A stretch of DNA of 36,289 nt, taken from Gammaproteobacteria bacterium (GTDB taxonomy: Bacteria > Pseudomonadota > Gammaproteobacteria > Pseudomonadales > CAMLJR01). The stretch covers positions 1 to 36,289 of the forward strand of contig JAJUJZ010000018.1 in assembly GCA_029265075.1 (NCBI GenBank), written 5' to 3'. The notes below the pieces were generated by a model, which saw only the letters and a program-made list of their open reading frames with translations, made no database searches and was not told the DNA's origin. Made by a program: the position numbers and the translations under genes. Shown piece by piece: positions 28,003 to 36,289 of this stretch; position 1 is the stretch's first letter; each line of letters opens with the position of its first letter.

Positions 28003-28557
28003 ATGAAACGTTTATGGCATAAACCGCAAAATCTGGGCGTTGTGCTTTTTGTCTCTTCTGTTGTGCTCTCTGCCGCTGCCATCGCTGCAGAGGACGGCGT
28101 GTTGCTGGCGAAGGTGGATGCCAGTGGCCAGCAGGTCTGCAAGATCGATTATCGCAATCCTGCGGACTCGACCAGGACCGGTGTTTATACGGGACAGTGC
28201 GAGGCTGGCCGGCCGGAAGGCGCAGGCAAGGTTGTTTACCACAATGGCGACCGCTTCGAAGGAGAGTTCAGAGACGGACTGCCGCACGGCAAGGGAAGCT
28301 GGTTCGGTGCCGCTGGCGACAGTTATCGTGGTGAGTGGGTGGCGGGCATGCGCTCCGGCGAAGGTACCTACCGCTGGGCATCGGGCAGCGAGTACTCCGG
28401 CCATTGGCATGAGGATCGTCGCCACGGCCAGGGCACGCTGATCTGGTCGAACGGTAACCGGTTCGAAGGGGAGTTCGTCGAGAACCGGCACTGGCTCGGT
28501 ACCTACTACACCAGGAATGGCGGCATGCATCGCTGTCGCGCCGGTAAATGCCGCTGA
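28003..28557 (+). CDS. Exported MORN-repeat protein
   Basis: From ATG 28003 the product has 184 residues, starting with a signal peptide (MKRLWHKPQNLGVVLFVSSV, cleavage probably after AAIAA near residue 30). Four to five MORN repeats follow (YTGQCEAGRPEGAGKVVYHN, GDRFEGEFRDGLPHGKGSW, DSYRGEWVAGMRSGEGTYRW, SEYSGHWHEDRRHGQGTLIW, NRFEGEFVENRHWLG). The tail has two cysteines (MHRCRAGKCR). MORN repeats form an elongated beta structure often used for protein or lipid contacts. The cellular role is not clear. A GTG at 27979 is an alternative start but lies before the basic signal-peptide region. A terminator follows at 28597-28630. Confidence 0.85.
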   Translation: MKRLWHKPQNLGVVLFVSSVVLSAAAIAAEDGVLLAKVDASGQQVCKIDYRNPADSTRTGVYTGQCEAGRPEGAGKVVYHNGDRFEGEFRDGLPHGKGSWFGAAGDSYRGEWVAGMRSGEGTYRWASGSEYSGHWHEDRRHGQGTLIWSNGNRFEGEFVENRHWLGTYYTRNGGMHRCRAGKCR

Positions 28558-28596
28558 AGAACGGTTGACACCACGCGAGAAGTAAGCTGCTCGCAA

Positions 28597-28630
28597 CGGG
28601 CATGGTCATCCGACCGTGCCCGCTGTTTTT
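28597..28630 (+). terminator. Intrinsic terminator downstream of the MORN gene
   Basis: CGGGCATGGTC (28597-28607) and GACCGTGCCCG (28612-28622) form an 11-bp stem with one T-G wobble and an ATCC loop. A T-run follows at 28626-28630. It separates the MORN gene from the nitrogen operon. Confidence 0.8.
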
Positions 28631-28698
28631 CCTCTTGTCTGTTCAAGCCCTCTGTTCGTTCGGTCTGACGCCCGGCACGCGTGGCCGTTACTGTCTGG

Positions 28699-28746
28699 TG
28701 CGCCATGGCAGTGCATCGGCGCACCCTGATGCACCAGATTGTTGCT
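28699..28746 (+). promoter_or_regulatory. Tandem NtrC-like binding sites upstream of nasT
   Basis: Two 17-base sequences fit the NtrC dyad TGCACYA-N3-TGGTGCA. Site 1, TGCGCCATGGCAGTGCA (28699-28715), matches 11 of 14 defined positions. Site 2, TGCACCAGATTGTTGCT (28730-28746), matches 12 of 14. Their centres are 31 bp apart, about three helical turns, close to the spacing of the E. coli glnA enhancer sites as I recall it. They would lie near -105 and -74 from the predicted sigma54 start. Confidence 0.6.
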
Positions 28747-28786
28747 CAGCCGCTGCCTGCGCCCGCGCGTTTCGCCGGCTGCAGGC

Positions 28787-28802
28787 TGGCATTCCGTTTG
28801 CT
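28787..28802 (+). promoter_or_regulatory. Sigma54 promoter of nasT-nasS
   Basis: TGGCATTCCGTTTGCT fits the sigma54 consensus TGGCACG-N4-TTGCW. The GG (28788-28789) and GC (28800-28801) dinucleotides are separated by exactly 10 bases. Five of seven -24 positions and all -12 positions agree. Transcription would start near 28812, about 50 bases before nasT. Confidence 0.65.
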
Positions 28803-28863
28803 CTGTTGGATGCATGGCTCTCGCATACAGTGACGCATATATCCATTTCTGGCAGTGGTGTTG

Positions 28864-29454
28864 ATGACGACAGCGCGACTCAGGGTCATGCTGGTAGACG
28901 ACCTGCCGGCGCGCGCGGCGCTGCTCGAACAGGCGCTGCGCGATCAGCAGTTCGAAGTGGTGGCGCGGCTGGCGACCGCGGCCGGTCTTGCTGACGAGGT
29001 CGCTCGCCTTGAGCCGGACGTCATCATCATCGATATCGATTCGCCGGACCGCGACACGCTGGAGCATATGGCGTCGCTGCATCGCGACAACCCGCGACCG
29101 GTGGTGATGTTTGCCGGTGAGCGCGAAACCGCCACCATCGAGCGCGCCGTGCGGGCGGGCGTCAGTGCCTACATTGTCGACGGTCTCAATCCGGGGCGGG
29201 TGCGAACCATTGTCGACGTCGCCATTGCCCGCTTCCGCGAGTACCAGGCGCTGCGCCGGGAGCTCGAGGAGACGCGCACGCAGCTGGCCGATCGCAAGCA
29301 GATCGACCGCGCCAAGGCGCTGCTGATGCGCCATCGCAAGATGAGTGAAGAGGCGGCTTACAAGGCGATGCGAAAGATGGCGATGGATCGCGGCCAGCGC
29401 CTGCCGGAAGTGGCCGCGAACATCATCGACGTATTCGATCTGTCAGAGGAGTGA
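28864..29454 (+). CDS. nasT: NasT: ANTAR-domain RNA-binding antiterminator
   Basis: The 196-residue protein has an N-terminal response-regulator-like receiver (LRVMLVDDLPARAALLEQAL, with the acceptor-type Asp57 in DVIIIDIDSP). The lysine usually found after strand 5 is replaced (GVSAYIVDGL), as in other non-canonical ANTAR regulators. A coiled-coil linker (RRELEETRTQLADRKQIDRA) leads into a three-helix ANTAR domain (about residues 135-190; AKALLMRHRKMSEEAAYKAM). ANTAR domains bind paired RNA hairpins and stop terminator formation. NasT acts with NasS, which sequesters it when nitrate is absent. In-frame GTG/TTG codons at 28855-28861 are alternative starts. The likely RNA target is the leader at 30881-30991. 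Confidence 0.93.
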   Translation: MTTARLRVMLVDDLPARAALLEQALRDQQFEVVARLATAAGLADEVARLEPDVIIIDIDSPDRDTLEHMASLHRDNPRPVVMFAGERETATIERAVRAGVSAYIVDGLNPGRVRTIVDVAIARFREYQALRRELEETRTQLADRKQIDRAKALLMRHRKMSEEAAYKAMRKMAMDRGQRLPEVAANIIDVFDLSEE

Positions 29455-29476
29455 TGGCGGTGACGCCAGAGAGCCT

Positions 29477-30676
29477 ATGAGCATCGAGAAGCGCAAACTC
29501 AAACTCGGCTACATCCCGTTGACCGATTGCCTGCCGCTGGTAGCGGCGGCCGAGCTGGGGCTGTTCGCCGACGAGGGGCTGGAGGTGGAGCTGTCGCGCG
29601 AGGCCTCCTGGTCGACGGTCCGCGACAAGCTGATTGTGGGCGAGCTGGATGGCGCGCAGCTGCTGGCGCCGATGGCACTCTCCGCCACGCTCGGCCTGGG
29701 CGGTCTGCGCAAGCCGATGGTCACGGCGTTTTCGCTCGGCCTCAATGGCAATGCCATCACCGTATCGAATGCGCTGTTCGCCGAGCTGGGCCTGCATGCC
29801 GAGGAGGCCAGCCCGCTCGGCGCCGCCGCGGCACTGGGAAAAGTGGTGGCGCAGCGACGCGAGCGCGGGCGCCAGCCGCTGGTGCTGGCCACGGTATTCC
29901 CCTTCTCGAATCACAACTACCTGCTGCGCTACTGGCTGGCGGCCGCCGGTGTCGACGCGGGTCGCGATATCAAGCTGGTGGCGCTGCCACCCTCACAAAT
30001 GGGGGCCAACCTGCGCCTCGGCCACATCGACGGCTTCTGTGTTGGCGAGCCGTGGAACAGTTGCGCCGTCGCCGAGGGGCATGGCCGCTGCCTGGTGACC
30101 GGTTACGAAATCTGGCAGAACGCGCCTGAGAAGGTGTTCGGTGTGGTCGGCGACTGGGCGATGCAACATCCCGAAACCCATGCCGCACTGCTGCGCGCGC
30201 TCGACCGCGCCTGCGCCTGGATCGACGACGACCCGCTGCAGGCGCTGCCGCTGTTGCATCGTGGCGAGCATGTGGATGTACCCATCGAACAGCTGCAGAT
30301 GCCCTTCAACGGCGAGTTGCACGTGGGCCTCGGCCAGCAGCGCCGGGGCCGCGATCACTTTCATGTCTTCCACCGTTTCGCCGCCAACTTCCCCTGGCGT
30401 TCGCACGCCTGCTGGATGGTCGACCAGATGGCGCGCTCGGGCCAGCTGCCGGATGCGGTGATGGCCTCTAACGTTATTGCTGAGGTTTGGCGCAGCGATA
30501 TCTATCGCGCCGTGTTCGGCGACAGCCGATCGCTGCCGCTGCACGACTATAAAAGTGAAGGAGAGCACCATCTCGCCTGGCAATGCGAAGGTAGCCGCGG
30601 CGCTGTTACGCTCGGTCCCGACCGTCTGGTTGACGCCGCCGTCTATTCACCGCAATCGTCTCCGGCTCTTGCCTGA
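29477..30676 (+). CDS. nasS: NasS: cytoplasmic NrtA-like nitrate sensor
   Basis: The 399-residue protein resembles the nitrate/bicarbonate-binding proteins NrtA and CmpA: KLGYIPLTDCLPLVAAAELG, FFADEGL-type GLFADEGLEVELSREASWST, VLATVFPFSNHNYLLRYWLA and GFCVGEPWNSCAVAEG. It has no signal peptide, so it should be cytoplasmic and act as a sensor rather than a transport component. In the known nasST systems it holds NasT inactive until nitrate or nitrite binds. The frame is open upstream inside nasT; ATG 29477, 22 bases after the nasT stop, is the sensible start. It is cotranscribed with nasT. Confidence 0.92.
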   Translation: MSIEKRKLKLGYIPLTDCLPLVAAAELGLFADEGLEVELSREASWSTVRDKLIVGELDGAQLLAPMALSATLGLGGLRKPMVTAFSLGLNGNAITVSNALFAELGLHAEEASPLGAAAALGKVVAQRRERGRQPLVLATVFPFSNHNYLLRYWLAAAGVDAGRDIKLVALPPSQMGANLRLGHIDGFCVGEPWNSCAVAEGHGRCLVTGYEIWQNAPEKVFGVVGDWAMQHPETHAALLRALDRACAWIDDDPLQALPLLHRGEHVDVPIEQLQMPFNGELHVGLGQQRRGRDHFHVFHRFAANFPWRSHACWMVDQMARSGQLPDAVMASNVIAEVWRSDIYRAVFGDSRSLPLHDYKSEGEHHLAWQCEGSRGAVTLGPDRLVDAAVYSPQSSPALA

Positions 30677-30813
30677 CGCTCGTCTGACTCCGACCTGACT
30701 GCATCGCGATAGTGCGTGCAGCGTGCCCGCTGCACCATCGCTGCGCCCGCCGCGCCCTCACCAAAAGCCATCCATAAATTCCAACCCTTTGAAATTCGAG
30801 GGTTTGCCCGGAC

Positions 30814-30829
30814 TGGCATCAAACTTGTA
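30814..30829 (+). promoter_or_regulatory. Second sigma54-like element, upstream of the nas structural genes
   Basis: TGGCATCAAACTTGTA keeps the GG of the -24 element and 10-base spacing but has GT instead of GC at -12, so it is weaker than the site upstream of nasT. The same DNA can also be read as a sigma70 promoter, TTGCCC (30804-30809) and TGTAAT (30826-30831) with a 16-base spacer. Either would start the leader RNA around 30838-30841, before the ANTAR hairpins. Confidence 0.4.
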
Positions 30830-30880
30830 ATCCCATTGTTAACAGAGACGGGAACACTCCTGTCATCGCGGTTTCGTGTT

Positions 30881-30948
30881 CCGGCCAGCGGCGGTCGGGC
30901 AGATGTGCGGCTCCGCGAATCCAGCACGGGCAAAGGCGCTCAAGGCTG
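30881..30948 (+). promoter_or_regulatory. ANTAR-type RNA hairpin pair, proposed NasT target
   Basis: Hairpin 1 pairs CCGGCC (30881-30886) with GGTCGG (30893-30898), six pairs including one wobble, around the hexaloop AGCGGC. Hairpin 2 pairs GGGC (30928-30931) with GCTC (30938-30941) around the hexaloop AAAGGC, and can extend through CAGC/GCTG (30922-30925 with 30945-30948). Both loops have A at position 1 and G at position 4, the reported ANTAR target signature. Hairpin 2 uses the 5' arm of the downstream terminator, so the two structures are mutually exclusive. Fold drawn by hand. Confidence 0.65.
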
Positions 30949-30991
30949 ATCGGCTTGATTGAAGTCGGTCAGCGTTGGGCGCCTTTTTTTT
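30932..30991 (+). terminator. Long intrinsic terminator in the nas leader (attenuator)
   Basis: The 5' arm (30932-30956) pairs with the 3' arm (30962-30986) across about 24 base pairs with one G-G mismatch (30944/30974) and a GATTG loop. Its base is AAAGGCGC pairing with GCGCCTTT, and T8 follows (30984-30991). It lies 55 bases before the start of the next coding gene, so it should stop transcription there unless antiterminated. Confidence 0.88.
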
Positions 30992-31045
30992 CGCCGGTCT
31001 TTTTCCTCCGCAGGAGAGACCGGCAACCATCGCGGAGCAGGGCAG

Positions 31046-32314
31046 ATGAACGATACGCGCGACAGCAGTGCCAGCGTTCCCGCCGGAGACGGCGTGGAGG
31101 CTCGCAGCGATCTGGTCATTATCGGCAGTGGCATGGCCGCGGTGCGTCTGGTGGAGACACTGCGCCGGCGCGGCGATCGCCGCTCCATCACGCTGCTGGG
31201 TGCGGAGCGTTCGCTGCCCTACAACCGCGTGCTGCTGTCGCCGCTGCTGGCGGGTGAGACCGAGTGGCAGCAGCTGATCAGCCACGATGCCGACTGGTAT
31301 GCACAGCAGCGCATTGCTCTGCGTCTGGGTTGCGCTGTTACTAACGTCGATGTCGAGGCGCGAGCGGTCACCTGTGCCGATGGCTCGCGTATCGCCTATG
31401 GCGAGCTGGTGTTCGCGACGGGCGCACAACAGCCCTTCACGCCCCCCATGCCCGGCATTGACTTGCCGGGTGTGACGGCGTTTCGCAATGTCGACGATGT
31501 GCGTCTCCTGCAGCGGGCCACTGGCCGCGCAGTGGTGCTTGGCGGCGGCTTGCTCGGCCTCGAGGCAGCGGTGGGGCTGGCGGCGCGCGGTCTGTCGGTC
31601 ACGGTGGTACACCGCGGCCCCTGCCTGATGAATCGTCAGCTCGATGAAACCGCCGCCGCCTATCTCGCGTCGGCCATCGCGCAACGCGGCGTCGAAGTCG
31701 TCACTGGCTGCAAGCCGGTGGCTATCATCGGCAGCGAGCGCGCCGCTGGCGTGCGTCTCGACGATGGCCGGCTGCTGCCCGCCGACCTGGTGGTGCTCGC
31801 GGTCGGTATCAAGCCATCGACTGCACTTGCGCGCGCAGCGGGTATCGATGTCGCGCACGGCATCGTTGTCAATGGTGGTCTCGCAGCGTCGGTGCCCGCC
31901 GTCTACGCGCTGGGCGAATGCGCCGAAGTGAATGGCGAAACGGTGGGACTGGTCGCCCCGATCTGGCAGCAGGTCGAGGTGCTGGCTGCCCGGCTCTGTG
32001 GTGAAGCCTGCGATTACCGGCCCGCGCCGTACGTAACCATGCTCAAGGTGAGCGGCATCGATGTGCATGTCTGCGGCGACATCGCCGGACGCCCGGGCGA
32101 CCGCACGCTCGTTTACGAAGACCGCGCCTGGGGCATCTACAAGAAGCTGGTGCTCCGCGAGCAGCGCGTCGTCGGTGCGCTGCTCTACGGCGACGTCACC
32201 GACAGCCAACGCTTTTTCTCCCTGATTCAGGACGGCTCTGCCGTCGATCGCGACTTCTGCCGCTTGCTGCTGGCCGGTGAACTGCCCGTCAGCAAAGCAG
32301 CCGCTTCCGCTTGA
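31046..32314 (+). CDS. FAD-dependent NAD(P)H oxidoreductase of the nitrate assimilation operon (NasC-like)
   Basis: From ATG 31046 (GGAG at 31034-31037) the product has 422 residues. It contains the two nucleotide-binding segments of a glutathione-reductase-type flavoprotein: VIIGSGMAAVRLVETLRRRG near the N-terminus (FAD) and VVLGGGLLGLEAAVGLAARG in the middle (NADH). It also has the C-terminal AVYALGECAEVNGETVGLVAP and VYEDRAWGIYKKLVL blocks. It resembles the flavin half of NirB but lacks the BFD iron-sulfur and siroheme domains. In assimilatory nitrate reductases such a subunit passes electrons from NADH to NasA (called NasC in Klebsiella); I give that role as inference. It lies 10 bases before nirB. 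A frame start inside the terminator (30959) is excluded. Confidence 0.8.
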   Translation: MNDTRDSSASVPAGDGVEARSDLVIIGSGMAAVRLVETLRRRGDRRSITLLGAERSLPYNRVLLSPLLAGETEWQQLISHDADWYAQQRIALRLGCAVTNVDVEARAVTCADGSRIAYGELVFATGAQQPFTPPMPGIDLPGVTAFRNVDDVRLLQRATGRAVVLGGGLLGLEAAVGLAARGLSVTVVHRGPCLMNRQLDETAAAYLASAIAQRGVEVVTGCKPVAIIGSERAAGVRLDDGRLLPADLVVLAVGIKPSTALARAAGIDVAHGIVVNGGLAASVPAVYALGECAEVNGETVGLVAPIWQQVEVLAARLCGEACDYRPAPYVTMLKVSGIDVHVCGDIAGRPGDRTLVYEDRAWGIYKKLVLREQRVVGALLYGDVTDSQRFFSLIQDGSAVDRDFCRLLLAGELPVSKAAASA

Positions 32315-32324
32315 GGATTCCGTT

Positions 32325-34883
32325 ATGACAGCCCTTGAAAACAGTCTCGCAGCCTCCGGCACTGCTGGCCGTCCCCGCCTGGTGGTGGTCGGCAACGGCA
32401 TGGTGGGCCACCACTTTGTCGAGCAGATGCTGGGAGCGGCAGTGCCCTTCGCCATTACCGTGATCGGGGCCGAACCGCGCCCCGCCTACGATCGCGTACA
32501 TCTCTCCGAAGTGTTCGCCGGTCGCGCGCCGGCTGAACTGGCGCTGACCACCCGTGAGTTCTATCAGGAAGCCGGCGTCGAGGCGCACTTCGGCGATCCG
32601 GTGGTGAGCATCGATCGCGAGGCGCGCACCGTAACCACGCAGGGCGGTCGCCGGTTCGGCTACGACAAGCTGGTGCTCGCCACGGGCTCCTTCCCCTTCG
32701 TGCCGCCGGTGCCCGGCGCCGACAGCAATGGCTGCTTCACCTATCGCACCATCGACGACCTCGGCGAGATTCGCGCGGCGGCCGCCAAGGCGCGCCGCGG
32801 CGTCGTGGTGGGCGGGGGCCTGCTCGGACTTGAAGCGGCCAACGCGCTGCGCAATCTCGGCCTCGAAACCCACGTCGTGGAATTTGCGCCGCAGCTGATG
32901 GGCGTGCAGGTGGATCCCGAGGGCGGCGCCATCCTGCGCAGCCAGATCGAAGCGCTGGGCATCAGCATCCACACCGGCAAGAACACGCAGCGCATCGTCG
33001 CCGGCGAAGAGCTGCCGCTGGCGATGCATTTCGCCGATGGCGAGGTGCTGGAGACCGACCTGATTGTCTTTTCCGCCGGCGTGCGTCCGGACGACAAGCT
33101 GGCGCGCGATGCGGATATCAAGATCGGCGAGCGTGGCGGCATCGTGATCGACTATCGCTGCCGCACCTCCGACTCCGACATCTACGCAGTCGGGGAGTGC
33201 GCGCTGTGGGGCGGCAAGATCTTCGGCCTGGTCGCCCCCGGCTATCAGATGGCCAAAGTGGCGGCGAGTGCACTGACCGGTGGCGATCTGTCTTTCCACG
33301 GCGCCGACATGAGCACCAAGCTGAAACTGCTTGGCGTGGATGTCGGCTCCATCGGCGACAGCCATGCGCGCAGCGAAGGCGCGCTCTGTTACCGCGTGGT
33401 TGACGAGCGCGCCGGCATCTACAAGAAGCTGGTGGTGTCGGCCGATGGCGAACGGCTGCTCGGCGCGGTGCTGGTAGGCGACAACGCACTCTACGACACG
33501 CTGCTCCAGTACTGCCTCAACGGTATCAAGCTGCCGGCCCAGCCGCTGTCGCTGATCGCGCCAAGTGGCGGCGAGGTAGTAGCCCTCGGTCCCGATTCGC
33601 TGCCGGAGACGGCGACGATCTGCTCCTGCCACAACGTCAGCAAGGGCGACATCTGCTGCCAGATTGACAGCGGCGTTACCGCGCTGAGCGATATCAAGAG
33701 CGCGACCAAGGCATCCACCGGTTGCGGCGGCTGCGCGGCGCTGCTCAAGACGGTGGTCGACAGCGAGCTGGCCAAGCGCGGCGTCGCGGTCAACAACCAC
33801 CTCTGCGAACACTTTGCCTATTCGCGGCAGGAGCTGTTCCACCTGATCAAGGTCGGCGGCATCCACACCTTCGAAGAGCTGGTCGCACGGCATGGCCAGG
33901 GGCTGGGCTGCGACATCTGCAAGCCCACCGCCGCGTCGATCTTCGCTTCGCTCGACAACGAGCATGTGCTCGACAAGCCGCATGTCGGCCTGCAGGACAC
34001 CAACGACACCTTCCTCGCCAACATGCAGAAAGACGGCACCTACTCGGTGGTGCCGCGCATCGCCGGTGGGGAAATCACCGCCGACAAACTGATCGTGCTG
34101 GGTCAGGTGGCGAAGAAATACAACCTCTATACCAAGATCACCGGCGGTCAGCGCATCGATCTGTTCGGCGCGCGCCTCAACGAGCTGCCGCTGATTTGGG
34201 AGGAGCTGATCGCCGCCGGCTTCGAAACCGGGCACGCCTACGGCAAATCGGTGCGTACCGTGAAATCGTGCGTCGGCTCCACCTGGTGCCGCTACGGGCA
34301 GCAGGATTCGGTAAGCATGGCGCTGCGCATCGAGCATCGCTACAAGGGGCTGCGCTCGCCGCACAAACTGAAATTCGCGGTCAGCGGCTGCACCCGCGAG
34401 TGCGCCGAGGCGCAGAGCAAGGACATTGGCGTCATCGCTACCGACAAGGGCTGGAACCTCTATGTCTGCGGCAATGGCGGCATGCGTCCGCGCCACGCCG
34501 ATCTGTTTGCCACCGACCTCGATGACGACACGCTGATTCGTTATATCGACCGCCTGCTGATGTTCTACATCCGTACCGCCGACCGGCTGCAGCGCACCTC
34601 GGTCTGGCTGGAAAACCTCGAAGGTGGGCTCGACTACCTCCGCAGCGTGGTGATTGACGACAGTCTCGGGCTGGGCGCCGAACTGGAGGCGCAGATGGAG
34701 CACGTCGTATCGACCTACGTCTGCGAATGGAAAGTGGCGGTTGAGGATCCCGAGAAACGCAAACGTTTCCGTCAGTTCGTCAACAGCGATGCCGAAGATC
34801 AGCAGGTCGTGTTTGTAACGGATCGCGAACAGATCCGCCCGGCCACACCTGCGGAGAAACGCGAACTGGCCACGGTCGCCTGA
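32325..34883 (+). CDS. nirB: Assimilatory nitrite reductase [NAD(P)H], large subunit
   Basis: NirB reduces nitrite to ammonia with six electrons from NAD(P)H. From ATG 32325 (GAGGA at 32313-32317) it has 852 residues. The order is an FAD/NAD(P)-binding flavoprotein module (RLVVVGNGMVGHHFVEQML; GVVVGGGLLGLEAANALRNL), a BFD-type [2Fe-2S] domain (ICSCHN ... STGCGGC), a ferredoxin-like helper, and the siroheme/[4Fe-4S] domain. The four ligand cysteines of the last domain are intact: Cys649 and Cys655 (SCVGSTWCRYG), Cys689 and Cys693 (GCTREC). All key centres are present. nirD follows after 40 bases. The upstream open frame (32277) overlaps the previous gene and is not used. Confidence 0.97.
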   Translation: MTALENSLAASGTAGRPRLVVVGNGMVGHHFVEQMLGAAVPFAITVIGAEPRPAYDRVHLSEVFAGRAPAELALTTREFYQEAGVEAHFGDPVVSIDREARTVTTQGGRRFGYDKLVLATGSFPFVPPVPGADSNGCFTYRTIDDLGEIRAAAAKARRGVVVGGGLLGLEAANALRNLGLETHVVEFAPQLMGVQVDPEGGAILRSQIEALGISIHTGKNTQRIVAGEELPLAMHFADGEVLETDLIVFSAGVRPDDKLARDADIKIGERGGIVIDYRCRTSDSDIYAVGECALWGGKIFGLVAPGYQMAKVAASALTGGDLSFHGADMSTKLKLLGVDVGSIGDSHARSEGALCYRVVDERAGIYKKLVVSADGERLLGAVLVGDNALYDTLLQYCLNGIKLPAQPLSLIAPSGGEVVALGPDSLPETATICSCHNVSKGDICCQIDSGVTALSDIKSATKASTGCGGCAALLKTVVDSELAKRGVAVNNHLCEHFAYSRQELFHLIKVGGIHTFEELVARHGQGLGCDICKPTAASIFASLDNEHVLDKPHVGLQDTNDTFLANMQKDGTYSVVPRIAGGEITADKLIVLGQVAKKYNLYTKITGGQRIDLFGARLNELPLIWEELIAAGFETGHAYGKSVRTVKSCVGSTWCRYGQQDSVSMALRIEHRYKGLRSPHKLKFAVSGCTRECAEAQSKDIGVIATDKGWNLYVCGNGGMRPRHADLFATDLDDDTLIRYIDRLLMFYIRTADRLQRTSVWLENLEGGLDYLRSVVIDDSLGLGAELEAQMEHVVSTYVCEWKVAVEDPEKRKRFRQFVNSDAEDQQVVFVTDREQIRPATPAEKRELATVA

Positions 34884-34923: not shown

Positions 34924-35283
34924 ATGAGCTGTGATTTTATCGCCTGCCATGTCACCGATCTGGTGGAGTACAGCGGCGTATGCGCGCTGGTCAACGGTCA
35001 GCAGGTTGCGCTGTTTTACCTTCCCATGCGCAATCCGAAGATCTATGCCATCGACAACTTCGATCCGATTGGCGCCGCCAATGTGCTCTCGCGCGGCATC
35101 ATCGGCGAGCTGCGCGGCGAGCTGGTCGTCGCCTCGCCCCTCTATAAACAGCACTTCTCGCTGACCACCGGGCGCTGCCTGGAGGACGAAACGGTTGCAG
35201 TGCGCGTCTGGCCAGCCGAGATCAGCAACGGCCTGGTTCGCGTCGGCCATCCGCAGCAGTCGTTGATCGAGTCGGCCGCCTGA
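34924..35283 (+). CDS. nirD: Nitrite reductase small subunit
   Basis: The 119-residue protein has the Rieske-like fold of NirD (GQQVALFYLP, KIYAIDNFDPIGAANVLSRG and the ASPLYKQHFSLTTGRCLEDE block). As in other NirD proteins, the Rieske Cys-His ligand pairs are absent, so it should not hold an iron-sulfur cluster. It pairs with NirB. A good AGGAGAG site precedes the ATG. nasA starts 22 bases downstream. Confidence 0.95.
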   Translation: MSCDFIACHVTDLVEYSGVCALVNGQQVALFYLPMRNPKIYAIDNFDPIGAANVLSRGIIGELRGELVVASPLYKQHFSLTTGRCLEDETVAVRVWPAEISNGLVRVGHPQQSLIESAA

Positions 35284-35305: not shown

Positions 35306-36289
35306 ATGACGGCCACGCGTACTACCTGTCCCTACTGCGGCGTTGGCTGCGGCGTTGCCGTTACGGTACAGGACGGTGGCGTCGCGCCGGTCGCCGGCGA
35401 CCGCGAGCACCCGGCCAATCGGGGACGGCTCTGCGTGAAAGGCTCGGCCCTGCATGAAACCGTGGGCCGTCAGCGCCGCCTGCTAACGCCCGAAATCGAT
35501 GGACGGCAGGCGAGCTGGGATGAGGCGCTCGACGCCGTGGCCGGCCGGCTCTCCGCCACTATCGCTGCGCACGGTGCGTCGGCGACCGCGCTCTATCTCT
35601 CCGGTCAATTGCTGACCGAGGATTACTACGTCGCCAACAAGCTCTGGAAGGGCTTTGTCGGCAGCGCCAATGTCGACACCAACTCCCGGCTCTGCATGTC
35701 CTCTGCCGTGGCCGCCCATACGCGGGCGTTCGGCGAAGACGTGGTGCCGGGCTGTTACGAAGACCTTGAACTGGCCGATCTGGTGGTGCTGGTTGGCTCC
35801 AACGCCGCCTGGGCGCATCCCGTCCTCTATCAGCGCCTGCAGAAGGCGCGGCGGGCACGTCCGGCGCTGAAGGTGGTGGTGATCGATCCGCGTCGCACTG
35901 ACAGCTGCGAGGAGGCGGACCTGCACCTGCCGCTGGCGCCGGGCAGCGATGCGTGGCTGTTCAACGGCCTGCTGGTCTATCTCGCCGACAGTGGTGCGCT
36001 GGATCGCAATTATGTGGATGCCCACACCAGCGGCTTTGACGAGGCGTTAGCGGCGGCGCGTGACTCGGCGCCGTGGCCCGAATCGGTGGCGGCCAAATGC
36101 GGGCTCGACCCGGTCGCGGTGGCGACGTTCTTCGAATGGTTCGCGGCGACGCCACGCACTGTCACGCTTTTTTCGCAGGGCATCAACCAGAGCTCGAGCG
36201 GCACCGACAAGGGCAACGCCATCATCAACTGCCACCTCGCGACGGGTCGGGTGGGGAAGCCGGGCGCCAGTCCCTTCTCGATCACCGGG
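35306..36289 (+). CDS. nasA: Assimilatory nitrate reductase catalytic subunit, 5' part (runs off the window)
   Basis: The frame from ATG 35306 is open to the window end, 328 codons. It starts MTATRTTCPYCGVGC, giving the N-terminal [4Fe-4S] cysteines Cys8, Cys11, Cys15 and Cys43 (GRLCVKG). The molybdenum ligand region of the bis-MGD nitrate reductases follows, with Cys130 in NSRLCMSSAVAAH. The SQGINQSSSGTDKGNAIINC block near the end is typical of NasA. NasA reduces nitrate to nitrite, which NirBD then reduces to ammonium. There is no signal peptide, consistent with a cytoplasmic assimilatory enzyme. The start is supported by GAGGAGAG at 35288-35295. The rest of the gene, including any C-terminal iron-sulfur domain, lies beyond the window. 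Confidence 0.95.
   Translation, partial: MTATRTTCPYCGVGCGVAVTVQDGGVAPVAGDREHPANRGRLCVKGSALHETVGRQRRLLTPEIDGRQASWDEALDAVAGRLSATIAAHGASATALYLSGQLLTEDYYVANKLWKGFVGSANVDTNSRLCMSSAVAAHTRAFGEDVVPGCYEDLELADLVVLVGSNAAWAHPVLYQRLQKARRARPALKVVVIDPRRTDSCEEADLHLPLAPGSDAWLFNGLLVYLADSGALDRNYVDAHTSGFDEALAAARDSAPWPESVAAKCGLDPVAVATFFEWFAATPRTVTLFSQGINQSSSGTDKGNAIINCHLATGRVGKPGASPFSITG

Follow-up and report, generated by a model that had tools for sequence, protein, structure and literature searches.

Directly downstream of nasT and nasS in a gammaproteobacterial draft genome, a leader with two hexaloop hairpins, P1 and P2, runs into a strong terminator ahead of genes for nitrite and nitrate assimilation, raising the question of whether this is a switch read by NasT or simply the end of the nasTS transcription unit. 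The window, meaning the whole stretch of DNA analysed (36,289 nucleotides), was examined together with related loci from public genomes. The leader is very probably a nitrate-controlled NasT/ANTAR-type transcription attenuator, of a kind described before from Pseudomonas and other bacteria, to which this locus adds a new example.

The leader and the genes around it

P1, P2, their loops, the linker, the terminator and its T8 tract were all found where a previous, sequence-only reading of the window had placed them (Table 1). Both hexaloops have A at position 1 and G at position 4 and are closed by a C-G pair (C[AGCGGC]G and C[AAAGGC]G, loops in brackets), a closing pair also known from SELEX with NasR (PMC7496416). 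The linker between P1 and P2 spans 29 nt (30899-30927), giving a loop-to-loop spacing of 39 nt. The terminator begins at the P2 loop (30932), with the P2 3′ arm forming part of the terminator 5′ arm, and its fold (-42.1 kcal/mol) was equalled by none of 200 shuffles. Both strands of the 36-kb window contain 45 strict hexaloop hairpins and 15 terminator-like sites, and exactly one P1-P2-terminator arrangement.

Table 1. Positions of leader elements and genes in the window (loops in square brackets)
Feature	Position	Strand	Details
nasT	28855-29454	+	Response-regulator receiver and ANTAR RNA-binding domain; Pfam Response_reg E=3.6e-14, ANTAR E=2.7e-17
nasS	29477-30676	+	NrtA-like nitrate/nitrite sensor; Pfam NMT1_2 E=5.2e-82
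Sigma-54-type promoter	30814-30828	+	TGGCAT-CAAAC-TTGT (TGGCATCAAACTTGT); sequence motif
5′ leader hairpin	30847-30864	+	GACGGGA-ACAC-UCCUGUC, 7 bp, stable; MFE fold; at predicted RNA 5′ end
Candidate extended P1 arm	30866-30918	+	UCGCGG (30866-30871) with CCGCGA (30913-30918); MFE fold of 30842-30950
P1 hexaloop hairpin	30881-30898	+	CCGGCC[AGCGGC]GGUCGG; -9.1 kcal/mol; A1/G4, closing C-G
P2 hexaloop (antiterminator) hairpin	30928-30941	+	GGGC[AAAGGC]GCUC; extendable to 30922-30948 at -8.6 kcal/mol
Intrinsic terminator	30932-30991	+	24 bp: 12+12 bp around a 1x1 mismatch; T8 at 30984-30991
FAD/NAD oxidoreductase	31046-32314	+	ATG at 31046; Pyr_redox_2 and Rubredoxin_C; first gene of the putatively controlled operon
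nirB, nitrite reductase large subunit	32277-34883 (start approximate)	+	NF011565 1264.6 bits, above cut-off
nirD-like small subunit	34924-35283	+	119-aa ORF directly after nirB; named by size and position
nasA-like molybdopterin nitrate reductase	35306-36289, leaves window	+	ORF MTATRTTCPYCGVGCG...

NasT is an ANTAR protein, as had been proposed: in addition to its Pfam receiver and ANTAR domains, it matches EutV (6WSH) and NasR (4AKK) in the PDB, and it is the sole ANTAR protein found in the draft genome (2.79 Mb, 90% complete). Aligned with EutV, whose RNA-contact residues were taken from PMC8934654, NasT has K143, Y164, R168, M172 and R177 in common and carries R for K147, D for N173 and G for R175; NasR likewise has D at position 173. 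The N-terminus of the nasS product (MSIEKRKLKLGYIPL) has no obvious signal peptide by eye, and the gene order nasT then nasS is found in 127 of 161 loci compared. A terminator-like hairpin with a T-rich tail lies upstream of nasT (28597-28622).

The first gene behind the leader had been taken for nirB, and is instead an oxidoreductase related to the NirB N-terminus, so what had been called the nasS-nirB gap is really a nasS-to-oxidoreductase gap. This protein is 62% identical to an orthologue behind a leader (L258) of a sister species, and the N-terminus of the nasA-like ORF resembles, by eye, that of the gene behind another (L254). The operon behind the leader consists of the FAD oxidoreductase, nirB, nirD and nasA.

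A scan for sigma-70 promoters found none, and a sigma-54-type motif is present, from which transcription would be expected to start near 30840. An element of this type stands upstream of 78 of 96 relatives' leaders (the set is defined below), compared with 0.3% in shuffles and two of 96 downstream, in a region never seen by the covariance model, R1, that was used to find leaders. This bears on the possibility that the stem is an ordinary nasTS terminator with coincidental hexaloops: it does follow nasS and end in T8, as a strong terminator would, but the T8 starts 308 nt past the nasS stop codon and has a separate sigma-54-type promoter upstream of it. A perfect 8-bp inverted repeat (GTGCAGCG-TGCC-CGCTGCAC, 30716-30735) without a U-tract also lies between nasS and this promoter; it was rejected as an NtrC site, its half-sites (GTGC...GCAC) running in the opposite sense to the NtrC consensus.

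Comparative evidence for a P2-terminator switch

From the nasS/nasT loci gathered in public genomes, 148 regions downstream of nasS were examined. A strong terminator with CANNGNNG starting its 5′ arm occurs in 64 of these, and 62 of the 64 form P2 with 3 bp or more, compared with 86 of 575 (about 15%) for CANNGNNG elsewhere. P2 and the terminator had been read as mutually exclusive, with alignment of related leaders proposed as a check. Among 21 aligned gammaproteobacterial leaders, one of them from the window, P2 is paired in 91.7% of cells and has 10 double-changed cells against a shuffle mean of 4.1 (most leaders were admitted with 3 bp or more in this stem, so selection could cause part of this signal). 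The 12-pair outer stem of the terminator is paired in 93.3%, with 36 double-changed cells against a mean of 11.3; for both pairings the count was as high in none of 500 shuffles, although related sequences can exceed shuffles of this kind. The pairings have alignment columns 15-18 in common, and the comparison supports a shared arm that covaries with both of its partners, as expected of a switch. Folding and covariation thus agree that P2 and the terminator are mutually exclusive.

Further context comes from the sole other genome of the genus compared (G212), which encodes one ANTAR protein and has four leaders (L251, L254, L258 and L261), the first behind nasTS and ahead of an MFS transporter, the others ahead of a molybdopterin nitrate reductase, NrtA and the FAD oxidoreductase orthologue. 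The P2-terminator unit therefore also precedes nitrate genes away from nasTS, and this, together with the retention of the CANNGNNG hexaloop and P2 stem in 62 of 64 relatives and the covariation of P2, argues against an ordinary nasTS terminator, leaving that explanation very improbable. The leaders over nitrate genes are four and dispersed in G212, whereas one leader serves one operon in the genome of the window.

R1, which comprises P2 and the terminator, was built on the 21-leader alignment. It finds one clear leader in the draft genome (E=3.2e-7, the window itself being one of the 21 model sequences) and, across 391 genomes of the order, about 100 leaders that fall in 77 of them. Most of these, after removal of duplicates and with 3 bp or more in the P2 stem, form the 96-leader set used here. 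An ANTAR protein was found in 18 of 18 leader-positive genomes tested and in none of 18 leader-negative ones, a control biased by the latter having also been picked for absence of NasS-like matches; in many of the 18 leader-positive genomes the ANTAR protein has an open frame of NasR size.

This co-occurrence, and the encoding of NasT next door, weigh against a protein-independent attenuator or riboswitch, in which a small molecule or a leader peptide would decide between P2 and the terminator and NasT would act elsewhere. The pairings are exclusive without any protein, as such a device would need, but what is conserved in the leader is the hexaloop signature recognised by ANTAR proteins (PMC7496416, PMC3369931), and a device of this sort is least probable of all. 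Covariation and the company that leaders keep with ANTAR proteins instead support, at the level of sequence, the NasT-type ANTAR attenuator that the sequence-only reading had proposed.

Hexaloop spacing and the possible part played by P1

Of the 96 leaders, 70 have a strict P1, meaning a C-G closed A1/G4 hexaloop hairpin of 4 bp or more, no further than 100 nt from P2, compared with 2.0 expected from shuffles; for stems of 5 bp or more the count is 65 (0.9 expected). The 29-nt linker of the window had been thought unusual. Among NasT/NasR leaders it is not, since 34 of 70 related leaders place the nearest P1 at least 30 nt from P2, loop to loop, which makes the 39 nt of the window typical; spacings in relatives range from 14 to 84 nt. 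The linker does fall outside the ranges given for other ANTAR leaders, namely 5-12 nt in natural EutV targets, where antitermination is lost or falls drastically when the length is altered or 20 nt are inserted (PMC3369931, PMC8934654), and 2-25 nt as curated for actinobacteria (PMC8164766). The linker is variable in the definition of Ramesh et al., so its length is no condition of membership (PMC3369931). The terminator stem, similarly described as unusually long, is ordinary in length, with a loop-to-U-tract distance of 52 against a median of 45 and a longest value of 56 in the 96 leaders; its energy is third strongest of the 96 (median -30.0; raw energies).

Such freedom of spacing could mean that P2 is the sole functional NasT site, with P1 dispensable or a recruitment site and linker length nearly irrelevant. 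This variant of the attenuator reading would accommodate the spacings of up to 84 nt, the 26 of 96 leaders without a strict P1 within 100 nt, and the sister species, where leaders accompanying a single ANTAR protein have nearest-P1 spacings of 73, 25, 24 and 34 nt (in the order of genes given above); it would also suit EutV, which contacts one hexaloop at once and for which a single hexaloop is the minimal target (PMC8934654). P1 is, however, much commoner than chance, as its 65 occurrences with 5 bp or more attest. Hairpin HI is needed in the nasA leader of Paracoccus denitrificans, where mutating it severely cut expression and replacing it abolished growth on nitrate (PMC5424462), and the affinity of NasR for two hairpins is about tenfold above that for one (PMC7496416). 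On balance this variant is unlikely, though it retains a real, minor share of the probability, and an attenuator in which NasT reads both hexaloops is preferred.

By folding alone, P1 of the window is not favoured over other structures at most transcript lengths. The candidate extended P1 arm, equalled by shuffles in 31 of 200 cases, would tentatively occupy much of the linker, and the leader of the window may perhaps be a long-linker one whose linker is partly folded into this arm. A weak hairpin of the linker's own does not outdo shuffles (p about 0.44), and a nearer P1 within the linker was rejected, the only hairpin seen there having the loop GCUC/GGCUCC, without A1 or G4.

In the Rhizobiaceae (L094:4397-4468 and other loci, alignment A2), a non-hexaloop hairpin lies between P1 and P2 and the loop-to-loop distance is conserved at 40-43 nt; RNAalifold also predicted this spacer hairpin independently, and it shows some compensatory changes. 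As a general cause of long linkers a spacer hairpin was rejected: gammaproteobacterial linkers of more than about 45 nt tend to fold, but linkers of 18-28 nt are unstructured in several relatives, and the mean z over 33 long linkers is only -0.7. Third A1/G4 hexaloops occur in several gammaproteobacterial leaders (L173, L175, L179, L182, L116 and L135), and two others (L177 and L180) have a middle loop with G rather than A at position 1 (GATGTA and GAAGTA) at the classic 18-nt spacing.

Provided that the hairpins called P1 are functional, NasT/NasR leaders appear from these comparisons to tolerate longer linkers than EutV leaders. The broader proposition, that nitrate-type ANTAR leaders escape the EutV short-linker rule, with spacings of 11-84 nt even where an organism has just one ANTAR protein, and a third hairpin filling the gap in many lineages, is evenly balanced between holding and failing.

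Proposed mechanism and relation to known systems

By analogy with the NasS-NasT, NasR and EutV systems, the leader would be transcribed from the sigma-54 promoter, which NtrC presumably activates when nitrogen is limiting. When nitrate is absent, NasS would hold NasT, the nascent RNA would fold into the terminator and transcription would stop at T8. When nitrate or nitrite is present, freed NasT would bind the P1 and P2 hexaloops and hold P2, such that the terminator could not close and polymerase would read through into the FAD oxidoreductase-nirB-nirD-nasA operon. Folding puts the cost of P2 without protein at about 16 kcal/mol against a complete terminator, so NasT would have to act during transcription.

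The locus is a further instance of nitrate antitermination, here with a switch supported by comparison among relatives and preceded by a promoter that probably responds to nitrogen limitation. More important than the locus is the wider survey, as it provides about 100 NasT/NasR leaders in one order and ties two Rfam families to ANTAR control. A search of window positions 28400-33000 gave no relevant Rfam family at E<=10, neither RF00625 (P11) nor RF03032 (narK RNA), and two sub-threshold matches in this region were taken as chance. The P11 and narK models do match Pseudomonas-type leaders (L286:1114-1183 on the - strand, L306 and L309), narK above the Rfam threshold and P11 below it, and their consensus carries a C[AACGxx]G hairpin and an AAAGRC hexaloop together with an element resembling a sigma-54 promoter (GGCAC...UGC). 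Both families thus appear, on sequence grounds, to be NasT-type ANTAR leaders. The survey has also found natural hexaloop spacings that an EutV-based model would predict to be inactive, which makes the use of two hairpins by an ANTAR dimer directly testable.

Among characterised systems, the EutV/eutP leader shares two A1/G4 hexaloops, the second inside the terminator (PMC3369931, PMC8934654), but differs in its short and length-sensitive linker. The Klebsiella NasR/nasF leader resembles that of the window in its nitrate signal, ANTAR domain and C-G closed A1/G4 hexaloops (PMC7496416), whereas NasR is a one-component NIT-ANTAR sensor in place of NasS-NasT. NasS-NasT themselves act in Paracoccus denitrificans, where NasT binds the nasA leader (PMC3795266), with an operon that differs from that of the window (PMC3795266, PMC5424462). 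Closest among known systems is NalA, the leader of Pseudomonas aeruginosa nirBD, for which sigma-54 boxes and a terminator are reported (Romeo et al. 2012, per PMC3973561). As far as the description in PMC3973561 extends, both have a sigma-54 promoter, a terminator leader and antitermination (predicted for the window) before nitrite/nitrate assimilation genes, while the leader of the window differs in directly following nasTS and in having a FAD oxidoreductase as its first gene.
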